Positions 4,026 to 64,000 of a stretch of DNA of 64,000 nt are shown here, piece by piece; the stretch's first letter is position 1, and every line of letters starts with the position of its first letter. The stretch is from assembly GCA_030867875.1 (NCBI GenBank), contig JAOWCC010000311.1, positions 1 through 64,000 of the forward strand. The letters run 5' to 3'. The position numbers were made by a program, and so were the translations under genes. The notes under the pieces are model-generated. The model saw only the letters and a program-made list of their open reading frames with translations, had not been told where the DNA came from and ran no database searches. This stretch comes from Actinernus sp. WN-2022. Taxonomy: Eukaryota; Cnidaria; Anthozoa; Actiniaria; Actinernidae.

Positions 4026-4179
4026 TACTAGAACTTTACAGCCAGCTTCGTACCTACCTTTTGACGTGCAAGGTGAGGAGTAGAGCATTGTCCCTTTTGA
4101 GCAATGAGATCAAAATAAAATAAAAATTAAGTTAAATATTCTGCGTCAAACAAAAAATAATAATAATAGGAAAGGTCAA

Positions 4180-12139: not shown

Positions 12140-12520
12140 ATGAAAATGAAAATCAAGACATTAACCGGTACTTACCCAAGTTTAGTAACCTTGGAAAGGA
12201 AAGAGGCCAGATACTATAGGTTGTCACAGAGTGTTCCACAGGGTAAGTGAAGAGTTTCAAGTGACACAGACGAAGATAATTCGTCGGATAGTGTAGTAGA
12301 AATTGTGGCTCTCGTCCCAGGGGGGAACAGCACTACCGCTCGTGACATTTTCATCGCCAAAGTTTTAAAGTATAACGCAAATGGACATACGGCTCGACTG
12401 GCTTGGTTCAAAGAACTAGAAGACACTCCAGACCATTTCGTATTCCAAATGGGCTCTGACGTTTGGGAAGAAAATGTAAAATCTTTGATTGTTTGTTTGT
12501 TTCAGAAATTTGATTCATAG
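12140..12520 (+). pseudogene. Coding-like segment with one in-frame TGA, running into the array
   Basis: From ATG 12140 one frame stays open to TAG 12518-12520 except for a single TGA at 12248-12250. The part before it ends YYRLSQSVPQGK. The part after has an acidic SDTDEDNSSDS linker, then a compact region with IFIAKVLKYN, ARLAWFKELEDTPDHFVFQ and SDVWEEN. This resembles small beta-rich modules in transposon-associated invertebrate proteins, but I cannot name it. G|GTAAGT at the TGA could be a splice donor. A weaker AAT|GTAAAA donor at 12474 plus the TTTCAG at 12505 would give a 31-base intron, implausibly short. The tandem array begins at 12490, inside this frame. Confidence 0.45.
12503..12505 (+). 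other. Strong 3' splice site at unit start
   Basis: TGTTTGTTTGTTTCAG|AAATTTG is a good acceptor with a T/G-rich tract. It lies at the very start of each unit, so the unit boundary falls just inside an intron end. An AATAAA follows 210 bases later with no other acceptor between, which would suit a terminal exon. Use is inferred, not shown. Confidence 0.35.
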
Positions 12521-12713
12521 AACATTTTACGCATTTTGGGATTTACCAGGTGTCACAAGTTCTAGATAATGTGTTTATGAAAAACCGACAGTGATAGTGA
12601 AATTTGGAAAATACATTTGCGTTCAATTCCTCAAAGTAATGTATGTGTATTTCTATGATAAGGGTGGTTGGAGGTTATAATGAGATGCTACCAATCGACG
12701 TATTAGAGTTTTG

Positions 12714-12719
12714 AATAAA
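12714..12719 (+). terminator. AATAAA polyadenylation signal (first in unit)
   Basis: AATAAA in TTGAATAAAGTGG, followed within 30 bases by GT/T-rich sequence, as expected of a plus-strand 3' end. Repeats in every unit. Confidence 0.35.
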
Positions 12720-12825
12720 GTGGTTGCTTTTGAGATTACTCTTGAAACTGATGGGATAGTAATTTGAAGACAAGTTAATCTGCTTATAGGGAAATAATAG
12801 AAATCGATTTATGCTTTTTCGATGT

Positions 12826-13062
12826 TTATGTCTTTTTGGTATGAGTTTTTAGATTTGTTTCGTAGAATATATGTTCTTCTAGAGTCATGCTTAGAAGAAG
12901 CATTGGCGGGCATTGTACATATCGAAGCGGTTCTATAGATAGCACTGCAATAGGATATTCTTGTCGCGCTTGTGTCAATTGTGGAGACATGTGAAAAGCG
13001 GCTTTTTCGGTGCCTGTCTTCGGATTTGAGAGATTTCTTATAAGATTGTATTGAAATTTCAT
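12826..13062 (-). CDS. Minus-strand small open frame, 78 aa, unknown
   Basis: ATG at 13062 with AAA after it; product starts MKFQYNLIRNLSNPKTG and ends basic (THTKKT). No signal peptide, membrane segment or known motif. Conservation between units is uninformative because the whole unit is conserved. The single substitution seen in it (54213, unit 13) is synonymous, which is too little to weigh. Confidence 0.2.
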   Translation of the reverse strand: MKFQYNLIRNLSNPKTGTEKAAFHMSPQLTQARQEYPIAVLSIEPLRYVQCPPMLLLSMTLEEHIFYETNLKTHTKKT

Positions 13063-13294
13063 TTCATTTACTTGTAATGTGGCTGTTTCATGTATTTGAT
13101 TATGAGTTGAGATAGATCAGGAACATTGAGTTTTGAAATTCTATAAGCTAGTGTCGGTGTTTTGTGTACTAAAGCTTCAAGGTTTATCTGAAAATGGAGC
13201 TAATCGGACAGGGGTGTGTGCAAATGGTGTCATAATTAGAATCTAGTGTATCCAAGAAAAACAACGGCAATCTTCAGTTGAGCTTGGCATTTGG

Positions 13295-13504
13295 ATGACA
13301 ACATGGCCACCGTTTCCACTTCTGCAGTATATTCTCCAAATGTCGAAGCTCATCTCGGGCGTAGATTACATTTACCAAGAAATAATAGTGCTTTGTCTCG
13401 TGCAGTTCATGTTGATCAGGCTAAAGCTGAGTGTCTTAAATATCATGTCCCTGTTAGTGTTTTTGTACCCGCGTACTATAACAACGTTTTGTGGCATAAA
13501 TTAA
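13295..13504 (+). other. Overlapping alternative frame, 69 codons, hydrophobic
   Basis: An ATG 8 bases upstream of the array-gene start opens a different frame with two hydrophobic stretches (around EIIVLCLVQFMLI and LSVLNIMSLLVFLYP). Its start context (TGGATGA) is weak, so ribosomes could scan past it to the strong ATG at 13303. Probably a shadow of the longer frame, but noted because it would make an upstream overlapping frame on the same mRNA in every unit. Confidence 0.15.
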
Positions 13505-13722
13505 TTTTAGATACTTTGAAACCTGCATTTATTTCTGTTGAAAATAGTAATTCCGAAGTTGTATATATCGCTCAGTTTACGAATATGATAGGTGTTAAGT
13601 TCCAGTGTTGGTTAGATGGTAATAGAGAATGGGAGATCACGGCCGAAGGCTGTTGGAGCCTAAAAGTTATCGTGTCAAAGCTCACCTCCACACCATACAT
13701 CGTCACCGCGTATCCTATTTAA
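13303..13722 (+). CDS. Array gene copy 1: 139-aa unknown protein, type A tail
   Basis: I chose ATG 13303 because its context AACATGG is a near-ideal Kozak site; an upstream in-frame TGA (13279-13281) rules out extension. The product starts MATVSTSAVYSPN and has a basic patch around GRRLHLPR (19-26) and a central HVPVSVFVPAYYNNVLWHK. The C-terminal third has a probable beta-strand pattern, ending YIVTAYPI (132-139). No signal peptide or membrane segment. The TAYP end and preceding strand pattern faintly recall EndoU/BECR-fold nucleases, but no catalytic His-His-Lys arrangement can be assigned; treat function as unknown. Stop TAA is 14 bases before a good donor (GAG|GTATGT). Evidence for real coding is the synonymous-biased A/B divergence of residues 106-135. 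Type A residues are G106, E111, S119, S125. Confidence 0.6.
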   Translation: MATVSTSAVYSPNVEAHLGRRLHLPRNNSALSRAVHVDQAKAECLKYHVPVSVFVPAYYNNVLWHKLILDTLKPAFISVENSNSEVVYIAQFTNMIGVKFQCWLDGNREWEITAEGCWSLKVIVSKLTSTPYIVTAYPI

Positions 13723-13733
13723 ATACTGATACT

Positions 13734-13742
13734 GAGGTATGT
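13734..13742 (+). other. 5' splice site just after the array gene stop
   Basis: GAG|GTATGT lies 14 bases past the TAA (16 in type B units). A stop this close to an exon end would not trigger nonsense-mediated decay in most animals, so a 3' UTR intron is possible. Candidate partner acceptors are 14936 and 15585. Confidence 0.4.
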
Positions 13743-14392
13743 ATATACTTTATCTGTTTAACCTAATGTACATGTCCTAGTTTATGTGGTAGAATTTCAG
13801 TCGTTGATAAAGTTTTATGGAAGAGATGATTTTGTGTGATTCAAAGCCAAAGGGAAGGGATGTGTTTCATTACTTGTTTACGTGGTGGAGCGTTCAGAAC
13901 TATTCCTCAACTTGCTATTCGTGTTTCACGATTCCCATTAGGTTTTAGTGTAGAGTATGTCTTAGCAATATTATGACGTTTTACAGAGCACATAGCATTT
14001 GTAGTATTGGTGAATCTCTTCGATGTGGCGCTTTTATAGAGAGTGTAAATATGGGTGGTGTCAAATGTCATTCATTCCTGCTTCTGTAGATATGTCGTTC
14101 ATTTTTTTCTCTTTGATAAAGGCAGCAATCATTTGGTTTTAAATTTTAAAGTATAACTACGTTCGATGGCGTTCCATGACGAGCGATTGAACATTATGAG
14201 CTTCCTCATCTTTGCGTAAGCAAACATTTTCTATCATGCTGGCACGTTTATTGACGACGTTTTTTGTAATAGGAACTCCGTTGCTGGTTGTTCGTGTGAG
14301 TTCTCACATTGTTCCTAAGTTAACTTTTTTAGAGCACATTTTAACGGATTGTGAGCTCTTGATTCTTCTTTGACAAGTTTATAATATACATC

Positions 14393-14400
14393 ATGCAAAT
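14393..14400 (+). promoter_or_regulatory. Octamer motif ATGCAAAT
   Basis: A perfect POU/Oct-1 octamer preceded by the AT-rich TTTATAATATAC. In units 3 and 4 this is exactly the first base of the duplicated 660-bp block, so those units carry two (21058 and 21718; 25057 and 25717). In animals octamers occur in histone H2B and snRNA promoters; use here is inferred only from sequence. Confidence 0.35.
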
Positions 14401-14599
14401 ACATTTAGGGAGAGAAACTGAGTTTGGTGGTGAGATTTTTATTTGCTACCGATCAATGTAATCTGACACAGATAGCGCGCTCAAGACTGGGTGTTGTCTG
14501 TGTTATAGGCGTCTATGGGTTGTTCTTTATGTTCACTATCGTAGTGACTTAAATTCGACGCTATTGTGGCTGGGACTACATTGATGGTGACGTTGTTTG

Positions 14600-14788
14600 A
14601 TGGTCACGATAATTAGAGAAACTATCGACTCCCATGTTTGCAATACAGGCTATTATGAGTGGCAAGTGGATCGAGGAGTTATTCAAAGCCCAGGGCTGCA
14701 TACTGAGCCTAGTTGCGCTCATATAGCGGTAAAACGATTTGCTTTCTTATCAGGGTGTATGAAAGTTTTCCTATCAAATACACATTAG
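14600..14788 (+). CDS. Small open frame, 62 aa, unknown
   Basis: ATG 14600 to TAG 14786-14788; product begins MVTIIRETIDSHVC and has three Cys. No family recognised. It lies between the octamer and the E2F-type site and is duplicated with them in units 3 and 4. A G-to-A change in units 8-10 (ACG to ACA, Thr) is synonymous. Could be an exon or chance. Confidence 0.2.
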   Translation: MVTIIRETIDSHVCNTGYYEWQVDRGVIQSPGLHTEPSCAHIAVKRFAFLSGCMKVFLSNTH

Positions 14789-14933
14789 CAAAGTCTTCAA
14801 TGTTTTTATTGTACTAATTTGTAATTAAGTTAATAACGACATCATGAGTAAACTCATATCAAATTAGCAATTCATACAATTTTAATTAGAAAAACTTTTA
14901 AATGAAATTTTAATATAGGTTTTTTATTTATTT

Positions 14934-14936
14934 CAG
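14934..14936 (+). other. 3' splice site candidate
   Basis: GTTTTTTATTTATTTCAG|AAG has a long pyrimidine-rich tract and is the best acceptor downstream of the donor at 13736/13737; the intervening 1.2 kb would be the intron. Confidence 0.35.
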
Positions 14937-15002
14937 AAGTATTTAACGTAAATACGTATAGGTACATTGAATTAGTAATAGCGGCGATTGATTCTTTTTT
15001 TG

Positions 15003-15027
15003 TTTTGGCGGGAAAGTGGGGGATTGG
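15003..15027 (+). promoter_or_regulatory. E2F-type site plus inverted CCAAT box
   Basis: TTTTGGCGGGAAA (15003-15015) matches the classical E2F consensus, and ATTGG (15023-15027), a reverse CCAAT box, follows within 8 bases, before GGGCGCGC. E2F plus CCAAT is the usual make-up of S-phase promoters. It is a GC-rich island within an AT-rich unit. An open frame (15005-15190, no ATG until 15124) reads across it, so coding and regulatory readings compete. Confidence 0.4.
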
Positions 15028-15188
15028 GCGCGCATCAGACTCATATCAGGCGCATGACTGGTACTCAATTTCGTTCCTAGAGCCCTCGGGTTTTTCGGGC
15101 AGCGGTCATTGGATCGGTTCTAAGATGGTGTTTAAAGAGGGTGACATACGAGGAATGTATTGCGGCATTTGTAACTATGACTATGGTT

Positions 15189-15210
15189 AAATCAAAACTT
15201 TTTTTGATTT
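15189..15210 (+). other. 9-bp stem hairpin
   Basis: AAATCAAAA (15189-15197) and TTTTGATTT (15202-15210) pair perfectly around a 4-base loop, directly at the end of the open frame that stops at 15188-15190. It does not match the histone 3' stem-loop. Confidence 0.5.
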
Positions 15211-15276
15211 CAATGATACAATATTGAGTTGAGTCAGCACATAGATCACATTTATTCATTTTTGAAGAGTGATTTA

Positions 15277-15415
15277 CACCTCGAAATCCACCTCGAAAAT
15301 CCAACTTGAAAATCCACCTCGAAAATGCACCTCTGAAATCTAATTCCAAAATCCAACTCCCAAATCCACCTTGAAATCCAACTCGAACATCCACCTCGAA
15401 ATCTAACTCGGGATT
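15277..15415. repeat. 12-13-bp minisatellite inside the unit
   Basis: About eleven degenerate copies of a CACCTCGAAAATC-like word stand in tandem. Copy order is the same in all units checked, so it has not changed length during array expansion. The 105-codon minus-strand frame over it (15077-15394, with repeated LDFRG) is a product of this repeat, not a gene. Confidence 0.9.
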
Positions 15416-15437
15416 TTAACTTGGCTTTTAGTTTATA

Positions 15438-15443
15438 AATAAA
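15438..15443 (+). terminator. AATAAA polyadenylation signal (second in unit)
   Basis: AATAAA in TTATAAATAAAAAAG, about 250 bases after the E2F-proximal open frame ends. Present in every unit. Confidence 0.3.
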
Positions 15444-15582
15444 AAAGATTGAATCGTGGAACAGTATTGTAACGTGCGAATTGAGTAAACAAATCCAAGG
15501 TCTACAGACAAGTCGATCAAACCACGTAGCTATTGATTATAGACTGAACAGTTCGCCTTGCCAAACCGGCTTTTTTGATTTT

Positions 15583-15585
15583 CAG
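15583..15585 (+). other. 3' splice site candidate
   Basis: CTTTTTTGATTTTCAG|GTC is a good acceptor. A GCA|GTATGT donor lies about 110 bases downstream, so an exon of ordinary size is possible, but no reading frame through it stays open without a stop. Confidence 0.3.
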
Positions 15586-15826
15586 GTCACTAGATCTGAC
15601 AAGTTGAAGTTGAGCTCATTTGGAACTGATGAGTTGTTGATAAGCGATTTTGGTGCGCGCTAATTGGATAACAAATCTATGACTCCGTGCAGCGCAGTAT
15701 GTTTAAAACTAGTTCATGTTCTTTTTTGCTGTACCCATTTTGTGTTTGTGTTTTCCAATTCGTTTTGATACTGAACTTTTGATAAAGATGTTTTTGATAT
15801 ATCAAATTGATCGTTTGATCTCGAAA

Positions 15827-18800
15827 TGTTTGTTTGTTTCAGAAATTTGATTCATAGAACATTTTACGCATTTTGGGATTTACCAGGTGTCACAAGTTCT
15901 AGATAATGTGTTTATGAAAAACCGACAGTGATAGTGAAATTTGGAAAATACATTTGCGTTCAATTCCTCAAAGTAATGTATGTGTATTTCTATGATAAGG
16001 GTGGTTGGAGGTTATAATGAGATGCTACCAATCGACGTATTAGAGTTTTGAATAAAGTGGTTGCTTTTGAGATTACTCTTGAAACTGATGGGATAGTAAT
16101 TTGAAGACAAGTTAATCTGCTTATAGGGAAATAATAGAAATCGATTTATGCTTTTTCGATGTTTATGTCTTTTTGGTATGAGTTTTTAGATTTGTTTCGT
16201 AGAATATATGTTCTTCTAGAGTCATGCTTAGAAGAAGCATTGGCGGGCATTGTACATATCGAAGCGGTTCTATAGATAGCACTGCAATAGGATATTCTTG
16301 TCGCGCTTGTGTCAATTGTGGAGACATGTGAAAAGCGGCTTTTTCGGTGCCTGTCTTCGGATTTGAGAGATTTCTTATAAGATTGTATTGAAATTTCATT
16401 TCATTTACTTGTAATGTGGCTGTTTCATGTATTTGATTATGAGTTGAGATAGATCAGGAACATTGAGTTTTGAAATTCTATAAGCTAGTGTCGGTGTTTT
16501 GTGTACTAAAGCTTCAAGGTTTATCTGAAAATGGAGCTAATCGGACAGGGGTGTGTGCAAATGGTGTCATAATTAGAATCTAGTGTATCCAAGAAAAACA
16601 ACGGCAATCTTCAGTTGAGCTTGGCATTTGGATGACAACATGGCCACCGTTTCCACTTCTGCAGTATATTCTCCAAATGTCGAAGCTCATCTCGGGCGTA
16701 GATTACATTTACCAAGAAATAATAGTGCTTTGTCTCGTGCAGTTCATGTTGATCAGGCTAAAGCTGAGTGTCTTAAATATCATGTCCCTGTTAGTGTTTT
16801 TGTACCCGCGTACTATAACAACGTTTTGTGGCATAAATTAATTTTAGATACTTTGAAACCTGCATTTATTTCTGTTGAAAATAGTAATTCCGAAGTTGTA
16901 TATATCGCTCAGTTTACGAATATGATAGGTGTTAAGTTCCAGTGTTGGTTAGATGGTAATAGAGAATGGGAGATCACGGCCGAAGGCTGTTGGAGCCTAA
17001 AAGTTATCGTGTCAAAGCTCACCTCCACACCATACATCGTCACCGCGTATCCTATTTAAATACTGATACTGAGGTATGTATATACTTTATCTGTTTAACC
17101 TAATGTACATGTCCTAGTTTATGTGGTAGAATTTCAGTCGTTGATAAAGTTTTATGGAAGAGATGATTTTGTGTGATTCAAAGCCAAAGGGAAGGGATGT
17201 GTTTCATTACTTGTTTACGTGGTGGAGCGTTCAGAACTATTCCTCAACTTGCTATTCGTGTTTCACGATTCCCATTAGGTTTTAGTGTAGAGTATGTCTT
17301 AGCAATATTATGACGTTTTACAGAGCACATAGCATTTGTAGTATTGGTGAATCTCTTCGATGTGGCGCTTTTATAGAGAGTGTAAATATGGGTGGTGTCA
17401 AATGTCATTCATTCCTGCTTCTGTAGATATGTCGTTCATTTTTTTCTCTTTGATAAAGGCAGCAATCATTTGGTTTTAAATTTTAAAGTATAACTACGTT
17501 CGATGGCGTTCCATGACGAGCGATTGAACATTATGAGCTTCCTCATCTTTGCGTAAGCAAACATTTTCTATCATGCTGGCACGTTTATTGACGACGTTTT
17601 TTGTAATAGGAACTCCGTTGCTGGTTGTTCGTGTGAGTTCTCACATTGTTCCTAAGTTAACTTTTTTAGAGCACATTTTAACGGATTGTGAGCTCTTGAT
17701 TCTTCTTTGACAAGTTTATAATATACATCATGCAAATACATTTAGGGAGAGAAACTGAGTTTGGTGGTGAGATTTTTATTTGCTACCGATCAATGTAATC
17801 TGACACAGATAGCGCGCTCAAGACTGGGTGTTGTCTGTGTTATAGGCGTCTATGGGTTGTTCTTTATGTTCACTATCGTAGTGACTTAAATTCGACGCTA
17901 TTGTGGCTGGGACTACATTGATGGTGACGTTGTTTGATGGTCACGATAATTAGAGAAACTATCGACTCCCATGTTTGCAATACAGGCTATTATGAGTGGC
18001 AAGTGGATCGAGGAGTTATTCAAAGCCCAGGGCTGCATACTGAGCCTAGTTGCGCTCATATAGCGGTAAAACGATTTGCTTTCTTATCAGGGTGTATGAA
18101 AGTTTTCCTATCAAATACACATTAGCAAAGTCTTCAATTTTTTTATTGTACTAATTTGTAATTAAGTTAATAACGACATCATGAGTAAACTCATATCAAA
18201 TTAGCAATTCATACAATTTTAATTAGAAAAACTTTTAAATGAAATTTTAATATAGGTTTTTTATTTATTTCAGAAGTATTTAACGTAAATACGTATAGGT
18301 ACATTGAATTAGTAATAGCGGCGATTGATTCTTTTTTTGTTTTGGCGGGAAAGTGGGGGATTGGGCGCGCATCAGACTCATATCAGGCGCATGACTGGTA
18401 CTCAATTTCGTTCCTAGAGCCCTCGGGTTTTTCGGGCAGCGGTCATTGGATCGGTTCTAAGATGGTGTTTAAAGAGGGTGACATACGAGGAATGTATTGC
18501 GGCATTTGTAACTATGACTATGGTTAAATCAAAACTTTTTTTGATTTCAATGATACAATATTGAGTTGAGTCAGCACATAGATCACATTTATTCATTTTT
18601 GAAGAGTGATTTACACCTCGAAATCCACCTCGAAAATCCAACTTGAAAATCCACCTCGAAAATGCACCTCTGAAATCTAATTCCAAAATCCAACTCCCAA
18701 ATCCACCTTGAAATCCAACTCGAACATCCACCTCGAAATCTAACTCGGGATTTTAACTTGGCTTTTAGTTTATAAATAAAAAAGATTGAATCGTGGAACA

Positions 18801-19163
18801 GTATTGTAACGTGCGAATTGAGTAAACAAATCCAAGGTCTACAGACAAGTCGATCAAACCACGTAGCTATTGATTATAGACTGAACAGTTCGCCTTGCCA
18901 AACCGGCTTTTTTGATTTTCAGGTCACTAGATCTGACAAGTTGAAGTTGAGCTCATTTGGAACTGATGAGTTGTTGATAAGCGATTTTGGTGCGCGCTAA
19001 TTGGATAACAAATCTATGACTCCGTGCAGCGCAGTATGTTTAAAACTAGTTCATGTTCTTTTTTGCTGTACCCATTTTGTGTTTGTGTTTTCCAATTCGT
19101 TTTGATACTGAACTTTTGATAAAGATGTTTTTGATATATCAAATTGATCGTTTGATCTCGAAA
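15827..19163 (+). repeat. Array unit 2 (type A)
   Basis: 3,337 bp. Distinguishing base: T instead of G at 18139, lengthening a T run. Confidence 0.97.
16640..17059 (+). CDS. Array gene copy 2, type A
   Basis: Same 139-aa product as copy 1 with no differences seen. Confidence 0.6.
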   Translation: MATVSTSAVYSPNVEAHLGRRLHLPRNNSALSRAVHVDQAKAECLKYHVPVSVFVPAYYNNVLWHKLILDTLKPAFISVENSNSEVVYIAQFTNMIGVKFQCWLDGNREWEITAEGCWSLKVIVSKLTSTPYIVTAYPI

Positions 19164-19976
19164 TGTTTGTTTGTTTCAGAAATTTGATTCATAGAACATT
19201 TTACGCATTTTGGGATTTACCAGGTGTCACAAGTTCTAGATAATGTGTTTATGAAAAACCGACAGTGATAGTGAAATTTGGAAAATACATTTGCGTTCAA
19301 TTCCTCAAAGTAATGTATGTGTATTTCTATGATAAGGGTGGTTGGAGGTTATAATGAGATGCTACCAATCGACGTATTAGAGTTTTGAATAAAGTGGTTG
19401 CTTTTGAGATTACTCTTGAAACTGATGGGATAGTAATTTGAAGACAAGTTCATCTGCTTATAGGGAAATAATAGAAATCGATTTATGCTTTTTCGATGTT
19501 TATGTCTTTTTGGTATGAGTTTTTAGATTTGTTTCGTAGAATATATGTTCTTCTAGAGTCATGCTTAGAAGAAGCATTGGCGGGCATTGTACATATCGAA
19601 GCGGTTCTATAGATAGCACTGCAATAGGATATTCTTGTCGCGCTTGTGTCAATTGTGGAGACATGTGAAAAGCGGCTTTTTCGGTGCCTGTCTTCGGATT
19701 TGAGAGATTTCTTATAAGATTGTATTGAAATTTCATTTCATTTACTTGTAATGTGGCTGTTTCATGTATTTGATTATGAGTTGAGATAGATCAGGAACAT
19801 TGAGTTTTGAAATTCTATAAGCTAGTGTCGGTGTTTTGTGTACTAAAGCTTCAAGGTTTATCTGAAAATGGAGCTAATCGGACAGGGGTGTGTGCAAATG
19901 GTGTCATAATTAGAATCTAGTGTATCCAAGAAAAACAACGGCAATCTTCAGTTGAGCTTGGCATTTGGATGACAAC

Positions 19977-20396
19977 ATGGCCACCGTTTCCACTTCTGCA
20001 GTATATTCTCCAAATGTCGAAGCTCATCTCGGGCGTAGATTACATTTACCAAGAAATAATAGTGCTTTGTCTCGTGCAGTTCATGTTGATCAGGCTAAAG
20101 CTGAGTGTCTTAAATATCATGTCCCTGTTAGTGTTTTTGTACCCGCGTACTATAACAACGTTTTGTGGCATAAATTAATTTTAGATACTTTGAAACCTGC
20201 ATTTATTTCTGTTGAAAATAGTAATTCCGAGGTTGTATATATCGCTCAGTTTACGAATATGATAGGTGTTAAGTTCCAGTGTTGGTTAGATGGTAATAGA
20301 GAATGGGAGATCACGGCCGAAGGCTGTTGGAAGCTGAAAGTTATCGTTTGCAAGCTGACGTCCACACCATACATTGTCACGGCGTATCCTATTTAA
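19977..20396 (+). CDS. Array gene copy 3, A/B mosaic
   Basis: The tail is type A through residue 118 (G106, E111) and type B from residue 119 (K119, C125) to the stop, then type A again after the stop. There is also a synonymous GAA to GAG change with the G at 20231. The switch points delimit a short conversion-like tract. Confidence 0.6.
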   Translation: MATVSTSAVYSPNVEAHLGRRLHLPRNNSALSRAVHVDQAKAECLKYHVPVSVFVPAYYNNVLWHKLILDTLKPAFISVENSNSEVVYIAQFTNMIGVKFQCWLDGNREWEITAEGCWKLKVIVCKLTSTPYIVTAYPI

Positions 20397-21057
20397 ATAC
20401 TGATACTGAGGTATGTATATACTTTATCTGTTTAACCTAATGTACATGTCCTAGTTTTAGTAGAATTTCAGTCGTTGATAAAGTTTTATGGAAGAGATGA
20501 TTTTGTGTGATTGAAAGGGAAGGGATGTGTTTCATTACTTGTTTACGTGGTGGAGCGTTCAGAACTATTCCTCAACTTGCTATTCGTGTTTCACGATTCC
20601 CATTAGGTTTTAGTGTAGAGTATGTCTTAGCAATATTATGACGTTTTACAGAGCACATAGCATTTGTAGTATTGGTGAATCTCTTCGATGTGGCGCTTTT
20701 ATAGAGAGTGTAAATATGGGTGGTGTCAAATGTCATTCATTCCTGCTTCTGTAGATATGTCGTTCATTTTTTTCTCTTTGATAAAGGCAGCAATCATTTG
20801 GTTTTAAATTTTAAAGTATAACTACGTTCGATGGCGTTCCATGACGAGCGATTGAACATTATGAGCTTCCTCATCTTTGCGTAAGCAAACATTTTCTATC
20901 ATGCTGGCACGTTTATTGACGACGTTTTTTGTAATAGGAACTCCGTTGCTGGTTGTTCGTGTGAGTTCTCACATTGTTCCTAAGTTAACTTTTTTAGAGC
21001 ACATTTTAACGGATTGTGAGCTCTTGATTCTTCTTTGACAAGTTTATAATATACATC

Positions 21058-22377
21058 ATGCAAATACATTTAGGGAGAGAAACTGAGTTTGGTGGTGAGA
21101 TTTTTATTTGCTACCGATCAATGTAATCTGACACAGATAGCGCGCTCAAGACTGGGTGTTGTCTGTGTTATAGGCGTCTATGGGTTGTTCTTTATGTTCA
21201 CTATCGTAGTGACTTAAATTCGACGCTATTGTGGCTGGGACTACATTGATGGTGACGTTGTTTGATGGTCACGATAATTAGAGAAACTATCGACTCCCAT
21301 GTTTGCAATACAGGCTATTATGAGTGGCAAGTGGATCGAGGAGTTATTCAAAGCCCAGGGCTGCATACTGAGCCTAGTTGCGCTCATATAGCGGTAAAAC
21401 GATTTGCTTTCTTATCAGGGTGTATGAAAGTTTTCCTATCAAATACACATTAGCAAAGTCTTCAATGTTTTTATTGTACTAATTTGTAATTAAGTTAATA
21501 ACGACATCATGAGTAAACTCATATCAAATTAGCAATTCATACAATTTTAATTAGAAAAACTTTTAAATGAAATTTTAATATAGGTTTTTTATTTATTTCA
21601 GAAGTATTTAACGTAAATACGTATAGGTACATTGAATTAGTAATAGCGGCGATTGATTCTTTTTTTGTTTTGGCGGGAAAGTGGGGGATTGGGCGCGCAT
21701 CAGACTCATATCAGGCGATGCAAATACATTTAGGGAGAGAAACTGAGTTTGGTGGTGAGATTTTTATTTGCTACCGATCAATGTAATCTGACACAGATAG
21801 CGCGCTCAAGACTGGGTGTTGTCTGTGTTATAGGCGTCTATGGGTTGTTCTTTATGTTCACTATCGTAGTGACTTAAATTCGACGCTATTGTGGCTGGGA
21901 CTACATTGATGGTGACGTTGTTTGATGGTCACGATAATTAGAGAAACTATCGACTCCCATGTTTGCAATACAGGCTATTATGAGTGGCAAGTGGATCGAG
22001 GAGTTATTCAAAGCCCAGGGCTGCATACTGAGCCTAGTTGCGCTCATATAGCGGTAAAACGATTTGCTTTCTTATCAGGGTGTATGAAAGTTTTCCTATC
22101 AAATACACATTAGCAAAGTCTTCAATGTTTTTATTGTACTAATTTGTAATTAAGTTAATAACGACATCATGAGTAAACTCATATCAAATTAGCAATTCAT
22201 ACAATTTTAATTAGAAAAACTTTTAAATGAAATTTTAATATAGGTTTTTTATTTATTTCAGAAGTATTTAACGTAAATACGTATAGGTACATTGAATTAG
22301 TAATAGCGGCGATTGATTCTTTTTTTGTTTTGGCGGGAAAGTGGGGGATTGGGCGCGCATCAGACTCATATCAGGCG
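21058..22377 (+). repeat. 660-bp tandem duplication in unit 3
   Basis: 21058-21717 is repeated exactly, as far as I can see, at 21718-22377. The block starts at the first base of ATGCAAAT and ends at TCAGGCG just after the E2F/CCAAT cluster, so both motif groups and the 62-codon frame are doubled (21265-21453, 21925-22113; E2F sites at 21668 and 22328). Confidence 0.95.
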
Positions 22378-23964
22378 CATGACTGGTACTCAATTTCGTT
22401 CCTAGAGCCCTCGGGTTTTTCGGGCAGCGGTCATTGGATCGGTTCTAAGATGGTGTTTAAAGAGGGTGACATACGAGGAATGTATTGCGGCATTTGTAAC
22501 TATGACTATGGTTAAATCAAAACTTTTTTTGATTTCAATGATACAATATTGAGTTGAGTCAGCACATAGATCACATTTATTCATTTTTGAAGAGTGATTT
22601 ACACCTCGAAATCCACCTCGAAAATCCAACTTGAAAATCCACCTCGAAAATGCACCTCTGAAATCTAATTCCAAAATCCAACTCCCAAATCCACCTTGAA
22701 ATCCAACTCGAACATCCACCTCGAAATCTAACTCGGGATTTTAACTTGGCTTTTAGTTTATAAATAAAAAAGATTGAATCGTGGAACAGTATTGTAACGT
22801 GCGAATTGAGTAAACAAATCCAAGGTCTACAGACAAGTCGATCAAACCACGTAGCTATTGATTATAGACTGAACAGTTCGCCTTGCCAAACCGGCTTTTT
22901 TGATTTTCAGGTCACTAGATCTGACAAGTTGAAGTTGAGCTCATTTGGAACTGATGAGTTGTTGATAAGCGATTTTGGTGCGCGCTAATTGGATAACAAA
23001 TCTATGACTCCGTGCAGCGCAGTATGTTTAAAACTAGTTCATGTTCTTTTTTGCTGTACCCATTTTGTGTTTGTGTTTTCCAATTCGTTTTGATACTGAA
23101 CTTTTGATAAAGATGTTTTTGATATATCAAATTGATCGTTTGATCTCGAAATGTTTGTTTGTTTCAGAAATTTGATTCATAGAACATTTTACGCATTTTG
23201 GGATTTACCAGGTGTCACAAGTTCTAGATAATGTGTTTATGAAAAACCGACAGTGATAGTGAAATTTGGAAAATACATTTGCGTTCAATTCCTCAAAGTA
23301 ATGTATGTGTATTTCTATGATAAGGGTGGTTGGAGGTTATAATGAGATGCTACCAATCGACGTATTAGAGTTTTGAATAAAGTGGTTGCTTTTGAGATTA
23401 CTCTTGAAACTGATGGGATAGTAATTTGAAGACAAGTTAATCTGCTTATAGGGAAATAATAGAAATCGATTTATGCTTTTTCGATGTTTATGTCTTTTTG
23501 GTATGAGTTTTTAGATTTGTTTCGTAGAATATATGTTCTTCTAGAGTCATGCTTAGAAGAAGCATTGGCGGGCATTGTACATATCGAAGCGGTTCTATAG
23601 ATAGCACTGCAATAGGATATTCTTGTCGCGCTTGTGTCAATTGTGGAGACATGTGAAAAGCGGCTTTTTCGGTGCCTGTCTTCGGATTTGAGAGATTTCT
23701 TATAAGATTGTATTGAAATTTCATTTCATTTACTTGTAATGTGGCTGTTTCATGTATTTGATTATGAGTTGAGATAGATCAGGAACATTGAGTTTTGAAA
23801 TTCTATAAGCTAGTGTCGGTGTTTTGTGTACTAAAGCTTCAAGGTTTATCTGAAAATGGAGCTAATCGGACAGGGGTGTGTGCAAATGGTGTCATAATTA
23901 GAATCTAGTGTATCCAAGAAAAACAACGGCAATCTTCAGTTGAGCTTGGCATTTGGATGACAAC

Positions 23965-24384
23965 ATGGCCACCGTTTCCACTTCTGCAGTATATTCTCCA
24001 AATGTCGAAGCTCATCTCGGGCGTAGATTACATTTACCAAGAAATAATAGTGCTTTGTCTCGTGCAGTTCATGTTGATCAGGCTAAAGCTGAGTGTCTTA
24101 AATATCATGTCCCTGTTAGTGTTTTTGTACCCGCGTACTATAACAACGTTTTGTGGCATAAATTAATTTTAGATACTTTGAAACCTGCATTTATTTCTGT
24201 TGAAAATAGTAATTCCGAAGTTGTATATATCGCTCAGTTTACGAATATGATAGGTGTTAAGTTCCAGTGTTGGTTAGATGATAATAGAGAATGGGACATC
24301 ACGGCGGAAGGCTGTTGGAAGCTGAAAGTTATCGTTTGCAAGCTGACGTCCACACCATACATTGTCACGGCGTATCCTATTTAA
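23965..24384 (+). CDS. Array gene copy 4, type B
   Basis: Type B residues D106, D111, K119, C125, with the type B post-stop sequence (ACCGACTG in place of ATACTG). Confidence 0.6.
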   Translation: MATVSTSAVYSPNVEAHLGRRLHLPRNNSALSRAVHVDQAKAECLKYHVPVSVFVPAYYNNVLWHKLILDTLKPAFISVENSNSEVVYIAQFTNMIGVKFQCWLDDNREWDITAEGCWKLKVIVCKLTSTPYIVTAYPI

Positions 24385-25056
24385 ACCGACTGATACTGAG
24401 GTATGTATATACTTTATCTGTTTAACCTAATGTACATGTCCTAGTTTATGTGGTAGAATTTCAGTCGTTGATAAAGTTTTATGGAAGAGATGATTTTGTG
24501 TGATTCAAAGCCAAAGGGAAGGGATGTGTTTCATTACTTGTTTACGTGGTGGAGCGTTCAGAACTATTCCTCAACTTGCTATTCGTGTTTCACGATTCCC
24601 ATTAGGTTTTAGTGTAGAGTATGTCTTAGCAATATTATGACGTTTTACAGAGCACATAGCATTTGTAGTATTGGTGAATCTCTTCGATGTGGCGCTTTTA
24701 TAGAGAGTGTAAATATGGGTGGTGTCAAATGTCATTCATTCCTGCTTCTGTAGATATGTCGTTCATTTTTTTCTCTTTGATAAAGGCAGCAATCATTTGG
24801 TTTTAAATTTTAAAGTATAACTACGTTCGATGGCGTTCCATGACGAGCGATTGAACATTATGAGCTTCCTCATCTTTGCGTAAGCAAACATTTTCTATCA
24901 TGCTGGCACGTTTATTGACGACGTTTTCTGTAATAGGAACTCCGTTGCTGGTTGTTCGTGTGAGTTCTCACATTGTTCCTAAGTTAACTTTTTTAGAGCA
25001 CATTTTAACGGATTGTGAGCTCTTGATTCTTCTTTGACAAGTTTATAATATACATC

Positions 25057-26376
25057 ATGCAAATACATTTAGGGAGAGAAACTGAGTTTGGTGGTGAGAT
25101 TTTTATTTGCTACCGATCAATGTAATCTGACACAGATAGCGCGCTCAAGACTGGGTGTTGTCTGTGTTATAGGCGTCTATGGGTTGTTCTTTATGTTCAC
25201 TATCGTAGTGACTTAAATTCGACGCTATTGTGGCTGGGACTACATTGATGGTGACGTTGTTTGATGGTCACGATAATTAGAGAAACTATCGACTCCCATG
25301 TTTGCAATACAGGCTATTATGAGTGGCAAGTGGATCGAGGAGTTATTCAAAGCCCAGGGCTGCATACTGAGCCTAGTTGCGCTCATATAGCGGTAAAACG
25401 ATTTGCTTTCTTATCAGGGTGTATGAAAGTTTTCCTATCAAATACACATTAGCAAAGTCTTCAATGTTTTTATTGTACTAATTTGTAATTAAGTTAATAA
25501 CGACATCATGAGTAAACTCATATCAAATTAGCAATTCATACAATTTTAATTAGAAAAACTTTTAAATGAAATTTTAATATAGGTTTTTTATTTATTTCAG
25601 AAGTATTTAACGTAAATACGTATAGGTACATTGAATTAGTAATAGCGGCGATTGATTCTTTTTTTGTTTTGGCGGGAAAGTGGGGGATTGGGCGCGCATC
25701 AGACTCATATCAGGCGATGCAAATACATTTAGGGAGAGAAACTGAGTTTGGTGGTGAGATTTTTATTTGCTACCGATCAATGTAATCTGACACAGATAGC
25801 GCGCTCAAGACTGGGTGTTGTCTGTGTTATAGGCGTCTATGGGTTGTTCTTTATGTTCACTATCGTAGTGACTTAAATTCGACGCTATTGTGGCTGGGAC
25901 TACATTGATGGTGACGTTGTTTGATGGTCACGATAATTAGAGAAACTATCGACTCCCATGTTTGCAATACAGGCTATTATGAGTGGCAAGTGGATCGAGG
26001 AGTTATTCAAAGCCCAGGGCTGCATACTGAGCCTAGTTGCGCTCATATAGCGGTAAAACGATTTGCTTTCTTATCAGGGTGTATGAAAGTTTTCCTATCA
26101 AATACACATTAGCAAAGTCTTCAATGTTTTTATTGTACTAATTTGTAATTAAGTTAATAACGACATCATGAGTAAACTCATATCAAATTAGCAATTCATA
26201 CAATTTTAATTAGAAAAACTTTTAAATGAAATTTTAATATAGGTTTTTTATTTATTTCAGAAGTATTTAACGTAAATACGTATAGGTACATTGAATTAGT
26301 AATAGCGGCGATTGATTCTTTTTTTGTTTTGGCGGGAAAGTGGGGGATTGGGCGCGCATCAGACTCATATCAGGCG
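25057..26376 (+). repeat. 660-bp tandem duplication in unit 4
   Basis: 25057-25716 repeated at 25717-26376, with a junction identical to that of unit 3. This marks a single origin followed by spread to a neighbouring unit. Confidence 0.95.
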
Positions 26377-27150
26377 CATGACTGGTACTCAATTTCGTTC
26401 CTAGAGCCCTCGGGTTTTTCGGGCAGCGGTCATTGGATCGGTTCTAAGATGGTGTTTAAAGAGGGTGACATACGAGGAATGTATTGCGGCATTTGTAACT
26501 ATGACTATGGTTAAATCAAAACTTTTTTTGATTTCAATGATACAATATTGAGTTGAGTCAGCACATAGATCACATTTATTCATTTTTGAAGAGTGATTTA
26601 CACCTCGAAATCCACCTCGAAAATCCAACTTGAAAATCCACCTCGAAAATGCACCTCTGAAATCTAATTCCAAAATCCAACTCCCAAATCCACCTTGAAA
26701 TCCAACTCGAACATCCACCTCGAAATCTAACTCGGGATTTTAACTTGGCTTTTAGTTTATAAATAAAAAAGATTGAATCGTGGAACAGTATTGTAACGTG
26801 CGAATTGAGTAAACAAATCCAAGGTCTACAGACAAGTCGATCAAACCACGTAGCTATTGATTATAGACTGAACAGTTCGCCTTGCCAAACCGGCTTTTTT
26901 GATTTTCAGGTCACTAGATCTGACAAGTTGAAGTTGAGCTCATTTGGAACTGATGAGTTGTTGATAAGCGATTTTGGTGCGCGCTAATTAGATAACAAAT
27001 CTATGACTCCGTGCAGCGCAGTATGTTTAAAACTAGTTCATGTTCTTTTTTGCTGTACCCATTTTGTGTTTGTGTTTTCCAATTCGTTTTGATACTGAAC
27101 TTTTGATAAAGATGTTTTTGATATATCAAATTGATCGTTTGATCTCGAAA

Positions 27151-30100
27151 TGTTTGTTTGTTTCAGAAATTTGATTCATAGAACATTTTACGCATTTTGG
27201 GATTTACCAGGTGTCACAAGTTCTAGATAATGTGTTTATGAAAAACCGACAGTGATAGTGAAATTTGGAAAATACATTTGCGTTCAATTCCTCAAAGTAA
27301 TGTATGTGTATTTCTATGATAAGGGTGGTTGGAGGTTATAATGAGATGCTACCAATCGACGTATTAGAGTTTTGAATAAAGTGGTTGCTTTTGAGATTAC
27401 TCTTGAAACTGATGGGATAGTAATTTGAAGACAAGTTAATCTGCTTATAGGGAAATAATAGAAATCGATTTATGCTTTTTCGATGTTTATGTCTTTTTGG
27501 TATGAGTTTTTAGATTTGTTTCGTAGAATATATGTTCTTCTAGAGTCATGCTTAGAAGAAGCATTGGCGGGCATTGTACATATCGAAGCGGTTCTATAGA
27601 TAGCACTGCAATAGGATATTCTTGTCGCGCTTGTGTCAATTGTGGAGACATGTGAAAAGCGGCTTTTTCGGTGCCTGTCTTCGGATTTGAGAGATTTCTT
27701 ATAAGATTGTATTGAAATTTCATTTCATTTACTTGTAATGTGGCTGTTTCATGTATTTGATTATGAGTTGAGATAGATCAGGAACATTGAGTTTTGAAAT
27801 TCTATAAGCTAGTGTCGGTGTTTTGTGTACTAAAGCTTCAAGGTTTATCTGAAAATGGAGCTAATCGGACAGGGGTGTGTGCAAATGGTGTCATAATTAG
27901 AATCTAGTGTATCCAAGAAAAACAACGGCAATCTTCAGTTGAGCTTGGCATTTGGATGACAACATGGCCACCGTTTCCACTTCTGCAGTATATTCTCCAA
28001 ATGTCGAAGCTCATCTCGGGCGTAGATTACATTTACCAAGAAATAATAGTGCTTTGTCTCGTGCAGTTCATGTTGATCAGGCTAAAGCTGAGTGTCTTAA
28101 ATATCATGTCCCTGTTAGTGTTTTTGTACCCGCGTACTATAACAACGTTTTGTGGCATAAATTAATTTTAGATACTTTGAAACCTGCATTTATTTCTGTT
28201 GAAAATAGTAATTCCGAAGTTGTATATATCGCTCAGTTTACGAATATGATAGGTGTTAAGTTCCAGTGTTGGTTAGATGGTAATAGAGAATGGGAGATCA
28301 CGGCCGAAGGCTGTTGGAGCCTAAAAGTTATCGTGTCAAAGCTCACCTCCACACCATACATCGTCACCGCGTATCCTATTTAAATACTGATACTGAGGTA
28401 TGTATATACTTTATCTGTTTAACCTAATGTACATGTCCTAGTTTATGTGGTAGAATTTCAGTCGTTGATAAAGTTTTATGGAAGAGATGATTTTGTGTGA
28501 TTCAAAGCCAAAGGGAAGGGATGTGTTTCATTACTTGTTTACGTGGTGGAGCGTTCAGAACTATTCCTCAACTTGCTATTCGTGTTTCACGATTCCCATT
28601 AGGTTTTAGTGTACAGTATGTCTTAGCAATATTATGACGTTTTACAGAGCACATAGCATTTGTAGTATTGGTGAATCTCTTCGATGTGGCGCTTTTATAG
28701 AGAGTGTAAATATGGGTGGTGTCAAATGTCATTCATTCCTGCTTCTGTAGATATGTCGTTCATTTTTTTCTCTTTGATAAAGGCAGCAATCATTTGGTTT
28801 TAAATTTTAAAGTATAACTACGTTCGATGGCGTTCCATGACGAGCGATTGAACATTATGAGCTTCCTCATCTTTGCGTAAGCAAACATTTTCTATCATGC
28901 TGGCACGTTTATTGACGACGTTTTTTGTAATAGGAACTCCGTTGCTGGTTGTTCGTGTGAGTTCTCACATTGTTCCTAAGTTAACTTTTTTAGAGCACAT
29001 TTTAACGGATTGTGAGCTCTTGATTCTTCTTTGACAAGTTTATAATATACATCATGCAAATACATTTAGGGAGAGAAACTGAGTTTGGTGGTGAGATTTT
29101 TATTTGCTACCGATCAATGTAATCTGACACAGATAGCGCGCTCAAGACTGGGTGTTGTCTGTGTTATAGGCGTCTATGGGTTGTTCTTTATGTTCACTAT
29201 CGTAGTGACTTAAATTCGACGCTATTGTGGCTGGGACTACATTGATGGTGACGTTGTTTGATGGTCACGATAATTAGAGAAACTATCGACTCCCATGTTT
29301 GCAATACAGGCTATTATGAGTGGCAAGTGGATCGAGGAGTTATTCAAAGCCCAGGGCTGCATACTGAGCCTAGTTGCGCTCATATAGCGGTAAAACGATT
29401 TGCTTTCTTATCAGGGTGTATGAAAGTTTTCCTATCAAATACACATTAGCAAAGTCTTCAATGTTTTTATTGTACTAATTTGTAATTAAGTTAATAACGA
29501 CATCATGAGTAAACTCATATCAAATTAGCAATTCATACAATTTTAATTAGAAAAACTTTTAAATGAAATTTTAATATAGGTTTTTTATTTATTTCAGAAG
29601 TATTTAACGTAAATACGTATAGGTACATTGAATTAGTAATAGCGGCGATTGATTCTTTTTTTGTTTTGGCGGGAAAGTGGGGGATTGGGCGCGCATCAGA
29701 CTCATATCAGGCGCATGACTGGTACTCAATTTCGTTCCTAGAGCCCTCGGGTTTTTCGGGCAGCGGTCATTGGATCGGTTCTAAGATGGTGTTTAAAGAG
29801 GGTGACATACGAGGAATGTATTGCGGCATTTGTAACTATGACTATGGTTAAATCAAAACTTTTTTTGATTTCAATGATACAATATTGAGTTGAGTCAGCA
29901 CATAGATCACATTTATTCATTTTTGAAGAGTGATTTACACCTCGAAATCCACCTCGAAAATCCAACTTGAAAATCCACCTCGAAAATGCACCTCTGAAAT
30001 CTAATTCCAAAATCCAACTCCCAAATCCACCTTGAAATCCAACTCGAACATCCACCTCGAAATCTAACTCGGGATTTTAACTTGGCTTTTAGTTTATAAA

Positions 30101-30487
30101 TAAAAAAGATTGAATCGTGGAACAGTATTGTAACGTGCGAATTGAGTAAACAAATCCAAGGTCTACAGACAAGTCGATCAAACCACGTAGCTATTGATTA
30201 TAGACTGAACAGTTCGCCTTGCCAAACCGGCTTTTTTGATTTTCAGGTCACTAGATCTGACAAGTTGAAGTTGAGCTCATTTGGAACTGATGAGTTGTTG
30301 ATAAGCGATTTTGGTGCGCGCTAATTAGATAACAAATCTATGACTCCGTGCAGCGCAGTATGTTTAAAACTAGTTCATGTTCTTTTTTGCTGTACCCATT
30401 TTGTGTTTGTGTTTTCCAATTCGTTTTGATACTGAACTTTTGATAAAGATGTTTTTGATATATCAAATTGATCGTTTGATCTCGAAA
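27151..30487 (+). repeat. Array unit 5 (type A)
   Basis: 3,337 bp. G-to-C at 28614, shared only with unit 6. Confidence 0.97.
27964..28383 (+). CDS. Array gene copy 5, type A
   Basis: Same product as copy 1. Confidence 0.6.
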   Translation: MATVSTSAVYSPNVEAHLGRRLHLPRNNSALSRAVHVDQAKAECLKYHVPVSVFVPAYYNNVLWHKLILDTLKPAFISVENSNSEVVYIAQFTNMIGVKFQCWLDGNREWEITAEGCWSLKVIVSKLTSTPYIVTAYPI

Positions 30488-33400
30488 TGTTTGTTTGTTT
30501 CAGAAATTTGATTCATAGAACATTTTACGCATTTTGGGATTTACCAGGTGTCACAAGTTCTAGATAATGTGTTTATGAAAAACCGACAGTGATAGTGAAA
30601 TTTGGAAAATACATTTGCGTTCAATTCCTCAAAGTAATGTATGTGTATTTCTATGATAAGGGTGGTTGGAGGTTATAATGAGATGCTACCAATCGACGTA
30701 TTAGAGTTTTGAATAAAGTGGTTGCTTTTGAGATTACTCTTGAAACTGATGGGATAGTAATTTGAAGACAAGTTAATCTGCTTATAGGGAAATAATAGAA
30801 ATCGATTTATGCTTTTTCGATGTTTATGTCTTTTTGGTATGAGTTTTTAGATTTGTTTCGTAGAATATATGTTCTTCTAGAGTCATGCTTAGAAGAAGCA
30901 TTGGCGGGCATTGTACATATCGAAGCGGTTCTATAGATAGCACTGCAATAGGATATTCTTGTCGCGCTTGTGTCAATTGTGGAGACATGTGAAAAGCGGC
31001 TTTTTCGGTGCCTGTCTTCGGATTTGAGAGATTTCTTATAAGATTGTATTGAAATTTCATTTCATTTACTTGTAATGTGGCTGTTTCATGTATTTGATTA
31101 TGAGTTGAGATAGATCAGGAACATTGAGTTTTGAAATTCTATAAGCTAGTGTCGGTGTTTTGTGTACTAAAGCTTCAAGGTTTATCTGAAAATGGAGCTA
31201 ATCGGACAGGGGTGTGTGCAAATGGTGTCATAATTAGAATCTAGTGTATCCAAGAAAAACAACGGCAATCTTCAGTTGAGCTTGGCATTTGGATGACAAC
31301 ATGGCCACCGTTTCCACTTCTGCAGTATATTCTCCAAATGTCGAAGCTCATCTCGGGCGTAGATTACATTTACCAAGAAATAATAGTGCTTTGTCTCGTG
31401 CAGTTCATGTTGATCAGGCTAAAGCTGAGTGTCTTAAATATCATGTCCCTGTTAGTGTTTTTGTACCCGCGTACTATAACAACGTTTTGTGGCATAAATT
31501 AATTTTAGATACTTTGAAACCTGCATTTATTTCTGTTGAAAATAGTAATTCCGAAGTTGTATATATCGCTCAGTTTACGAATATGATAGGTGTTAAGTTC
31601 CAGTGTTGGTTAGATGGTAATAGAGAATGGGAGATCACGGCCGAAGGCTGTTGGAGCCTAAAAGTTATCGTGTCAAAGCTCACCTCCACACCATACATCG
31701 TCACCGCGTATCCTATTTAAATACTGATACTGAGGTATGTATATACTTTATCTGTTTAACCTAATGTACATGTCCTAGTTTATGTGGTAGAATTTCAGTC
31801 GTTGATAAAGTTTTATGGAAGAGATGATTTTGTGTGATTCAAAGCCAAAGGGAAGGGATGTGTTTCATTACTTGTTTACGTGGTGGAGCGTTCAGAACTA
31901 TTCCTCAACTTGCTATTCGTGTTTCACGATTCCCATTAGGTTTTAGTGTACAGTATGTCTTAGCAATATTATGACGTTTTACAGAGCACATAGCATTTGT
32001 AGTATTGGTGAATCTCTTCGATGTGGCGCTTTTATAGAGAGTGTAAATATGGGTGGTGTCAAATGTCATTCATTCCTGCTTCTGTAGATATGTCGTTCAT
32101 TTTTTTCTCTTTGATAAAGGCAGCAATCATTTGGTTTTAAATTTTAAAGTATAACTACGTTCGATGGCGTTCCATGACGAGCGATTGAACATTATGAGCT
32201 TCCTCATCTTTGCGTAAGCAAACATTTTCTATCATGCTGGCACGTTTATTGACGACGTTTTTTGTAATAGGAACTCCGTTGCTGGTTGTTCGTGTGAGTT
32301 CTCACATTGTTCCTAAGTTAACTTTTTTAGAGCACATTTTAACGGATTGTGAGCTCTTGATTCTTCTTTGACAAGTTTATAATATACATCATGCAAATAC
32401 ATTTAGGGAGAGAAACTGAGTTTGGTGGTGAGATTTTTATTTGCTACCGATCAATGTAATCTGACACAGATAGCGCGCTCAAGACTGGGTGTTGTCTGTG
32501 TTATAGGCGTCTATGGGTTGTTCTTTATGTTCACTATCGTAGTGACTTAAATTCGACGCTATTGTGGCTGGGACTACATTGATGGTGACGTTGTTTGATG
32601 GTCACGATAATTAGAGAAACTATCGACTCCCATGTTTGCAATACAGGCTATTATGAGTGGCAAGTGGATCGAGGAGTTATTCAAAGCCCAGGGCTGCATA
32701 CTGAGCCTAGTTGCGCTCATATAGCGGTAAAACGATTTGCTTTCTTATCAGGGTGTATGAAAGTTTTCCTATCAAATACACATTAGCAAAGTCTTCAATG
32801 TTTTTATTGTACTAATTTGTAATTAAGTTAATAACGACATCATGAGTAAACTCATATCAAATTAGCAATTCATACAATTTTAATTAGAAAAACTTTTAAA
32901 TGAAATTTTAATATAGGTTTTTTATTTATTTCAGAAGTATTTAACGTAAATACGTATAGGTACATTGAATTAGTAATAGCGGCGATTGATTCTTTTTTTG
33001 TTTTGGCGGGAAAGTGGGGGATTGGGCGCGCATCAGACTCATATCAGGCGCATGACTGGTACTCAATTTCGTTCCTAGAGCCCTCGGGTTTTTCGGGCAG
33101 CGGTCATTGGATCGGTTCTAAGATGGTGTTTAAAGAGGGTGACATACGAGGAATGTATTGCGGCATTTGTAACTATGACTATGGTTAAATCAAAACTTTT
33201 TTTGATTTCAATGATACAATATTGAGTTGAGTCAGCACATAGATCACATTTATTCATTTTTGAAGAGTGATTTACACCTCGAAATCCACCTCGAAAATCC
33301 AACTTGAAAATCCACCTCGAAAATGCACCTCTGAAATCTAATTCCAAAATCCAACTCCCAAATCCACCTTGAAATCCAACTCGAACATCCACCTCGAAAT

Positions 33401-33824
33401 CTAACTCGGGATTTTAACTTGGCTTTTAGTTTATAAATAAAAAAGATTGAATCGTGGAACAGTATTGTAACGTGCGAATTGAGTAAACAAATCCAAGGTC
33501 TACAGACAAGTCGATCAAACCACGTAGCTATTGATTATAGACTGAACAGTTCGCCTTGCCAAACCGGCTTTTTTGATTTTCAGGTCACTAGATCTGACAA
33601 GTTGAAGTTGAGCTCATTTGGAACTGATGAGTTGTTGATAAGCGATTTTGGTGCGCACTAATTAGATAACAAATCTATGACTCCGTGCAGCGCAGTATGT
33701 TTAAAACTAGTTCATGTTCTTTTTTGCTGTACCCATTTTGTGTTTGTGTTTTCCAATTCGTTTTGATACTGAACTTTTGATAAAGATGTTTTTGATATAT
33801 CAAATTGATCGTTTGATCTCGAAA
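30488..33824 (+). repeat. Array unit 6 (type A)
   Basis: 3,337 bp. Shares the G-to-C of unit 5 (here 31951) and has a private G-to-A at 33657. Confidence 0.97.
31301..31720 (+). CDS. Array gene copy 6, type A
   Basis: Same product as copy 1. Confidence 0.6.
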   Translation: MATVSTSAVYSPNVEAHLGRRLHLPRNNSALSRAVHVDQAKAECLKYHVPVSVFVPAYYNNVLWHKLILDTLKPAFISVENSNSEVVYIAQFTNMIGVKFQCWLDGNREWEITAEGCWSLKVIVSKLTSTPYIVTAYPI

Positions 33825-63871: not shown

Positions 63872-64000
63872 TGTTTGTTTGTTTCAGAAATTTGATTCAT
63901 AGAACATTTTACGCATTTTGGGATTTACCAGGTGTCACAAGTTCTAGATAATGTGTTTATGAAAAACCGACAGTGATAGTGAAATTTGGAAAATACATTT
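63872..64000 (+). repeat. Array unit 16, cut by window end
   Basis: First 129 bases of another unit, matching the others, so the array continues beyond the window. Confidence 0.95.

Follow-up and report, generated by a model that had tools for sequence, protein, structure and literature searches.

The analysed window is the first 64 kb (64,000 nucleotides) of a 385-kb contig, C1021, of the 1.39-Gb Actinernus sp. WN-2022 assembly. It is largely occupied by a tandem array of head-to-tail units with a G+C content of 37%, mostly 3337 bp long and up to 3999 bp where a 660-bp duplication is present. Fifteen full units span positions 12493–63874, unit 16 is interrupted by the window end, and the array extends to about 124 kb of C1021. 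Each unit carries a frame of 139 codons, with 33 copies in all; 29 units were read directly as DNA. The coordinates of the features are collected in Table 1. Gene-bearing macrosatellites such as D4Z4/DUX4 also have a tandem unit of about 3.3 kb with a small open frame; the likeness is limited to unit size and the small frame, and no sequence relation is claimed.

Table 1. Features of the array in the window (positions in the 64,000-nucleotide stretch)
Feature	Position	Strand	Remark
Tandem array, 3337-bp units	12493..64000	+	15 full units in window
139-codon frame with stop, unit 1	13303..13722	+	
Same frame, starts in later units	16640, 19977, 23965, 27964, 31301, 34638, 37975		
Same frame, starts in later units (continued)	41320, 44659, 47998, 51335, 54672, 58009, 61346		
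Type A tract, unit 1	13619..13724	+	
Further type A tracts	16956-17061, 28280-28385, 31617-31722, 34954-35059	+	
Further type A tracts (continued)	48314-48419, 51651-51756, 54988-55093, 58325-58430	+	
Mosaic A/B/A tract, unit 3	20293..20398	+	
Type B tract, unit 4	24281..24388	+	
Further type B tracts	41636-41743, 44975-45082, 61662-61769; 38291-38398	+	38291-38398 with one A base
Splice-donor-like GAG/GTATGT (putative)	13734..13742	+	14 bases past frame stop
6-bp stretch	13842..13847	+	Present in 21 of 29 units; absent from units 3, 22, 23, 25-29

Downstream of the frame lies a GTATGT motif, a putative splice donor. A 13-bp minisatellite, CACCTCGAAAATC, with about 10 copies (15277–15401), occupies the same place in all 15 units. 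The 660-bp internal tandem duplication is identical in units 3 and 4 (19167–27153) and maps to unit-1 coordinate 14648. The left flank contains a direct repeat of roughly one kilobase with a spacing of 1914 (about 2300–5600). The window had no Rfam match at gathering thresholds.

The first-pass annotation had sorted the units into type A (units 1, 2, 5–7 and 11–14; n = 9) and type B (units 4, 8–10 and 15; n = 5), differing by 13 substitutions and a 1-to-3-base indel within 13619–13724 and by hardly anything elsewhere. Both the types and the confinement of their differences were confirmed. The substitutions are located at 13619, 13635, 13644, 13658, 13659, 13662, 13674, 13676, 13677, 13683, 13686, 13701 and 13707, and the indel at 13724 (T vs CCG). 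Unit 3, absent from the earlier typing, has A bases at 13619–13644, B bases at 13658–13707 and the A form of the indel. Unit 8 has a B tract with the A base at 13701, and unit 10 has one private change at 13626. Beyond the tract, a further 14 sites vary among the 15 units, 11 of which are confined to one unit each, and there are four indels, including the 660-bp duplication. In each of four A/B unit pairs, 13 or 14 of the 15 or 16 substitutions are inside the tract, where the alignment counts the T/C mismatch at the indel as a substitution, and none of 20,000 random placements per pair reached the observed clustering. The clustering is not due to chance: a diverged block with sharp ends stands in near-identical copies, as in gene conversion. 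The whole array comprises 16 A copies, one mosaic and 16 B-like copies, 13 of the latter read as DNA and three assigned by protein identity alone.

A protein search of the same genome gave 56 matches, 33 of them in the array and 13 in a second array on contig C635. Beyond the window's array, relatives occur at nine places: the C635 array and two more places on C635, single places on C235, C734, C685 and C942, and two on C1021, both further along the contig. A search with paralogue L038 as the query recovered two more pieces of the family, both short N-terminal fragments (C635:43314324 and 43343992). In the second array (C635:43214687-43248120), 11 of 13 units have one in-frame TAA, which lies at codon 15 in both units that were read, and the B tail is unchanged. 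The two arrays begin at different unit points, and the 2.6 kb bordering the C635 array on its left is without a match to the window's left flank; on these grounds, a reading of C1021 as a haplotig of that array is not supported.

The tails of these relatives were compared with both types. The copy on C235 has the B tail exactly, with 0 of 105 bases different in codons 105–139, and differs from B at 23 of 312 bases in codons 1–104. Of the 13 C635 array units, 12 carry the B tail (all by tract score, three of them also read directly). The exception, L022, is a hybrid: it is array-like at about 13042–13594, identical to A in the tract and similar to paralogue L041 at about 13857–14304. L041 is a diverged, frameshifted copy on C635. 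At the 13 diagnostic sites it has the A base at nine, the B base at two and another base at two, together with the A form of the indel, and its tail differs from A at 20 bases. The B base is found at 11 of the 13 sites in L037 and at nine in L036. The GTATGT motif is conserved in L035, L036, L037, L038, L041 and L042 and is altered, in the alignment, in L039 and L040.

The A/B tract changes 11 codons. Seven of the changes are synonymous (114 Ala, 120 Leu, 124 Val, 127 Leu, 128 Thr, 133 Ile and 135 Thr) and four are not (G106D, E111D, S119K and S125C), in agreement with the earlier reading. By codon position (first, second, third), the changes number 0, 3 and 10, and the dN/dS ratio of the tract is 0.14 (NG86, codons 105–139). 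The same 13 changes placed randomly in 20,000 trials altered 9.1 residues on average and created a stop in 24% of trials; four residue changes, as observed, or fewer occurred in 0.035% (P = 0.00035). The frame is open in the copies on C235, C734 and C635 (128.88 Mb). Against B, dN/dS is between 0.25 and 0.42 in eight of nine paralogues: 0.32 in L035, L036 and a TAA-bearing C635 unit, 0.31 in L037, 0.42 in L038, 0.25 in L041, and 0.33 in L040 and 0.40 in L042, where it is based on 89 and 90 codons, respectively, and the tails align poorly. The ninth, L039, contains a stop and has a ratio of 0.70. Some of the copies are broken (L040, L041 and L042), and their low ratios imply that either the breaks happened recently or most of the changes are older. 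Judged by these ratios, purifying selection acts on the frame across the family, and this conservation of the A/B tail and of the paralogues is the reason for regarding it as coding.

The frame protein had no significant match in Pfam, PHROGs, NCBIfam, PDB and a large protein set, and so matches no described family in those libraries; one Pfam DUF match (E = 0.08) was obtained in one of seven members. The AlphaFold model of the window's protein alone has a mean pLDDT of 32 and was left out of the interpretation. A noncoding frame with an accidental silent pattern, to which the absence of a family match and the low ratios of broken copies (L040, L041, L042 and the C635 TAA unit) would be agreeable, has a negligible chance of being true given the random-placement result and the ratios of eight paralogues. 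The claim that the frame is truly coding is thus supported by the tail ratio, by random placement and by the open frames of paralogues. The further claim that the A/B tract is the best evidence for coding holds in part, as the tract does support it, but the comparison of whole frames among paralogues is broader. The array stands as a set of near-identical copies of a putative small protein-coding gene with no assigned function.

The first annotation had proposed that the tract diverged elsewhere under protein constraint and was then imported, and had suggested looking for a paralogue matching B across a longer stretch. C235 and C635 do hold such copies, but what they demonstrate is that B is the wider-spread form, and A is the odd one. 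Among 40 candidates scored, A was found in 16 C1021 units, in the left part of the array, and in the C635 hybrid L022. A genome search with the 110-bp tract returned 17 exact A matches (16 on C1021 and one on C635), then the mosaic at 91% and then B at 88–89%. No match between those classes and no diverged A donor was present among the 40 scored of 50 candidates, a list that is incomplete, because the known relatives L041 and L036 are missing from it. Either a diverged A donor was not seen in this search or A changed further after import. Import from elsewhere is supported, not proved, and it is A, rather than B, that looks imported on sequence comparison. No donor with a noncoding tract was found, yet 11 of the 13 C635 units have a stop upstream of their B tail.

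The maximum likelihood tree of the tail places A outside a group of B, L035, L036 and L037 (support 79/94), and in the tree of the head the two types are identical and stand beside L035–L037. The two trees thus disagree over A, although the AU test rejects neither a clade of A, B and L035 (p = 0.063) nor a grouping of A with L041 (p = 0.134). L041 is the paralogue nearest to A, and its 20 tail differences from A rule it out as the direct donor. L022 is a possible donor of A, with either direction of transfer.

Exchange among the units of the array was also observed. The 6-bp stretch downstream of the frame recombines with the A/B tract; four gametes are present in the 29 units between tract sites and the markers at 13842 and 13883. 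In unit 23 an A tract is joined to right-hand downstream sequence, and units 3 and 8 also record exchange.

These observations point to short-tract interlocus gene conversion, with an unsampled lineage of paralogues as the donor and subsequent spread within the array, as the probable origin of the two forms. One unit would have received the last ~35 codons or so from a lineage whose branching preceded the divergence of the B-bearing copies from each other and whose protein had been kept under purifying selection. Unequal crossing-over together with short conversions would then have carried A across the left 24 of the array's 33 units, produced the mosaic units 3 and 8 and homogenised the remainder. 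The converted tract would measure at least 106 bp and, if the donor was L041-like, up to about 193 bp, with its ends within 13608–13619 and 13724–13802. This reading is based on the limitation of the A/B differences to 106 bp on near-identical backbones, on the excess of third-position changes (10 of 13) with the low tail ratio, on the B tail shared by C235 and C635 units and the nine A bases and indel shared by L041, and on the L022 hybrid, the tree conflict, the four gametes and unit 23. The lack of a donor among the 40 candidates scored and the AU results count against it. In the available text of a study of Caenorhabditis, surviving conversion tracts tend towards 50–200 nt (PMC3966223), a range that includes 106 to about 193 bp.

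The tail is also fast at third positions in other paralogues, and some of the divergence between A and B could therefore have a local origin. By parsimony, with A, L039 and L040 left out and L042 absent from all versions, third positions required 31 steps at 35 sites in the tail vs 40 at 87 in codons 16–104, and downstream noncoding DNA required 19 steps at 114 sites and 92 at 419. Even without A, third positions in the tail thus evolve at about twice the rate of the remaining third positions and at four to five times that of downstream noncoding DNA (permutation p = 0.005). First and second positions are alike in the tail (24/70) and in codons 16–104 (58/175). Since the downstream noncoding DNA is slower even than these positions, the contrast may reflect homogenisation or constraint of the flanks rather than a fast tail. 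In the pair L039–L040, on other contigs and far from the arrays, 14 of 35 tail third positions differ, vs 7 of 53 in the head and 22 of 147 downstream. Among ten overlapping pairs picked from 20, with uncorrected p values, the tail exceeded the head at p < 0.05 in seven, the exceptions being L035–L036, L036–L037 and B–L036, and exceeded downstream DNA in all ten.

Two causes of the excess were considered. Observed/expected CpG is about 1 in both the unit and the tail, and removal of CpG sites weakened the tail excess and did not remove it (tail 12/25, head 23/74, downstream 17/110 and 59/359); CpG sites thus account for some of the excess, but CpG decay does not account for all of it. An RNA hairpin with compensating changes was rejected, as RNA folding of A and B on both strands did not exceed that of shuffles (200 each, z from −0.45 to 0.89) and the A/B sites pair inconsistently.

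A locally fast spot, where mutations hit the tail frequently in all copies and those retained are mostly protein-sparing, so that B, or a form ancestral to both types, gave rise to A with no foreign donor, draws on this third-position excess and on the L039–L040 pair, on the C–G swaps that make up six of the ten third-position A/B differences and on the missing donor. It nevertheless appears unlikely. A and B differ at 10 third positions in 35 tail codons, at none in 104 head codons and at none of 575 downstream bases, with no intermediates, which suggests a block event; the nine sites common to L041 would be hard to gain in place. The smaller contrast after CpG removal and the three pairs with no significant tail–head difference weaken this explanation further. 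The same third-position excess would be expected if unsampled lineages had converted the tail repeatedly. A stronger proposal, that the last 30–35 codons are a genuine hotspot of silent change, rewritten repeatedly in unlinked copies, with A/B as the latest instance, seems quite doubtful. The putative drivers are correspondingly speculative: site-directed recombination or mutation, or selection that alters nucleotides while the protein is kept, of which escape from a matching small RNA would be an example. If it were true, such a hotspot would offer a natural test of synonymous divergence outpacing adjacent noncoding DNA, with selection or a local DNA process as the driver.

Selection might instead keep two functional tail forms, distinguished by the four residue changes, as an island that resists homogenisation. 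The equal numbers of A and B-like copies agree with this, and divergent islands amid conversion are known for GOT1 paralogues in the available text of PMC3728101. The existence of mosaic units and the largely silent difference, with its low tail dN/dS, make maintenance by selection improbable, and drift in a 33-unit array could leave two forms for a while. It is very improbable that the assembler wove together two haplotypes or arrays: C1021 is small beside contigs of 50–150 Mb, but runs of A and B take turns many times along the 29 units read, the flanking markers form few haplotypes, A is also present on C635, and the A/B difference would be real even in a woven assembly.

Conversion from a paralogue, the preferred reading, is similar to several described cases, as far as their available texts go. 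In GOT1p1/GOT1p2 of Tigriopus californicus, a segment towards the 3′ end has two forms, one donated by a paralogue; silent differences outnumber residue-changing ones (up to 14 and 8), and the two ends of the gene yield different trees (PMC3728101). The present case shares the two diverged, mostly silently different 3′ forms; its end trees also differ, at an AU p of 0.063. For GOT1, however, population samples and a known donor paralogue were available, whereas here a 33-unit tandem array was studied in one assembly, with a diverged donor not seen among the 40 candidates scored. DBLMSP/DBLMSP2 of Plasmodium falciparum have two deep domain lineages, one common to both paralogues, ascribed to non-allelic gene conversion (PMC10919680). 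Here, too, two deeply diverged lineages occur, one of them shared between paralogues, but those proteins are cell-surface antigens, whereas the present gene has no assigned function, differs mostly silently and is arranged in a tandem array. The tract is similar in size to those of fog-2/ftr-1 and other Caenorhabditis paralogues, which are gene pairs and families rather than a large array (PMC3966223). The two-form tail works like the known paralogue conversions and is a new example, in a gene family without a name. The locus would be a case in which a tandem gene array acquired a diverged gene segment and is spreading it, with silent sites recording the origin of the segment in a working gene.

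Two further features of the relatives were noted. In L039 (C685, reverse strand), unit positions ~218–280 are joined directly to ~821–864 in a second, partial copy, as expected of a spliced or deleted copy. The single-copy relatives L035, L036 and L037 all cease to match the unit at its position 2163 (window ~14655) and share other sequence beyond it. This common break means that the array unit apparently gained sequence, or lost its old neighbour, before amplification.
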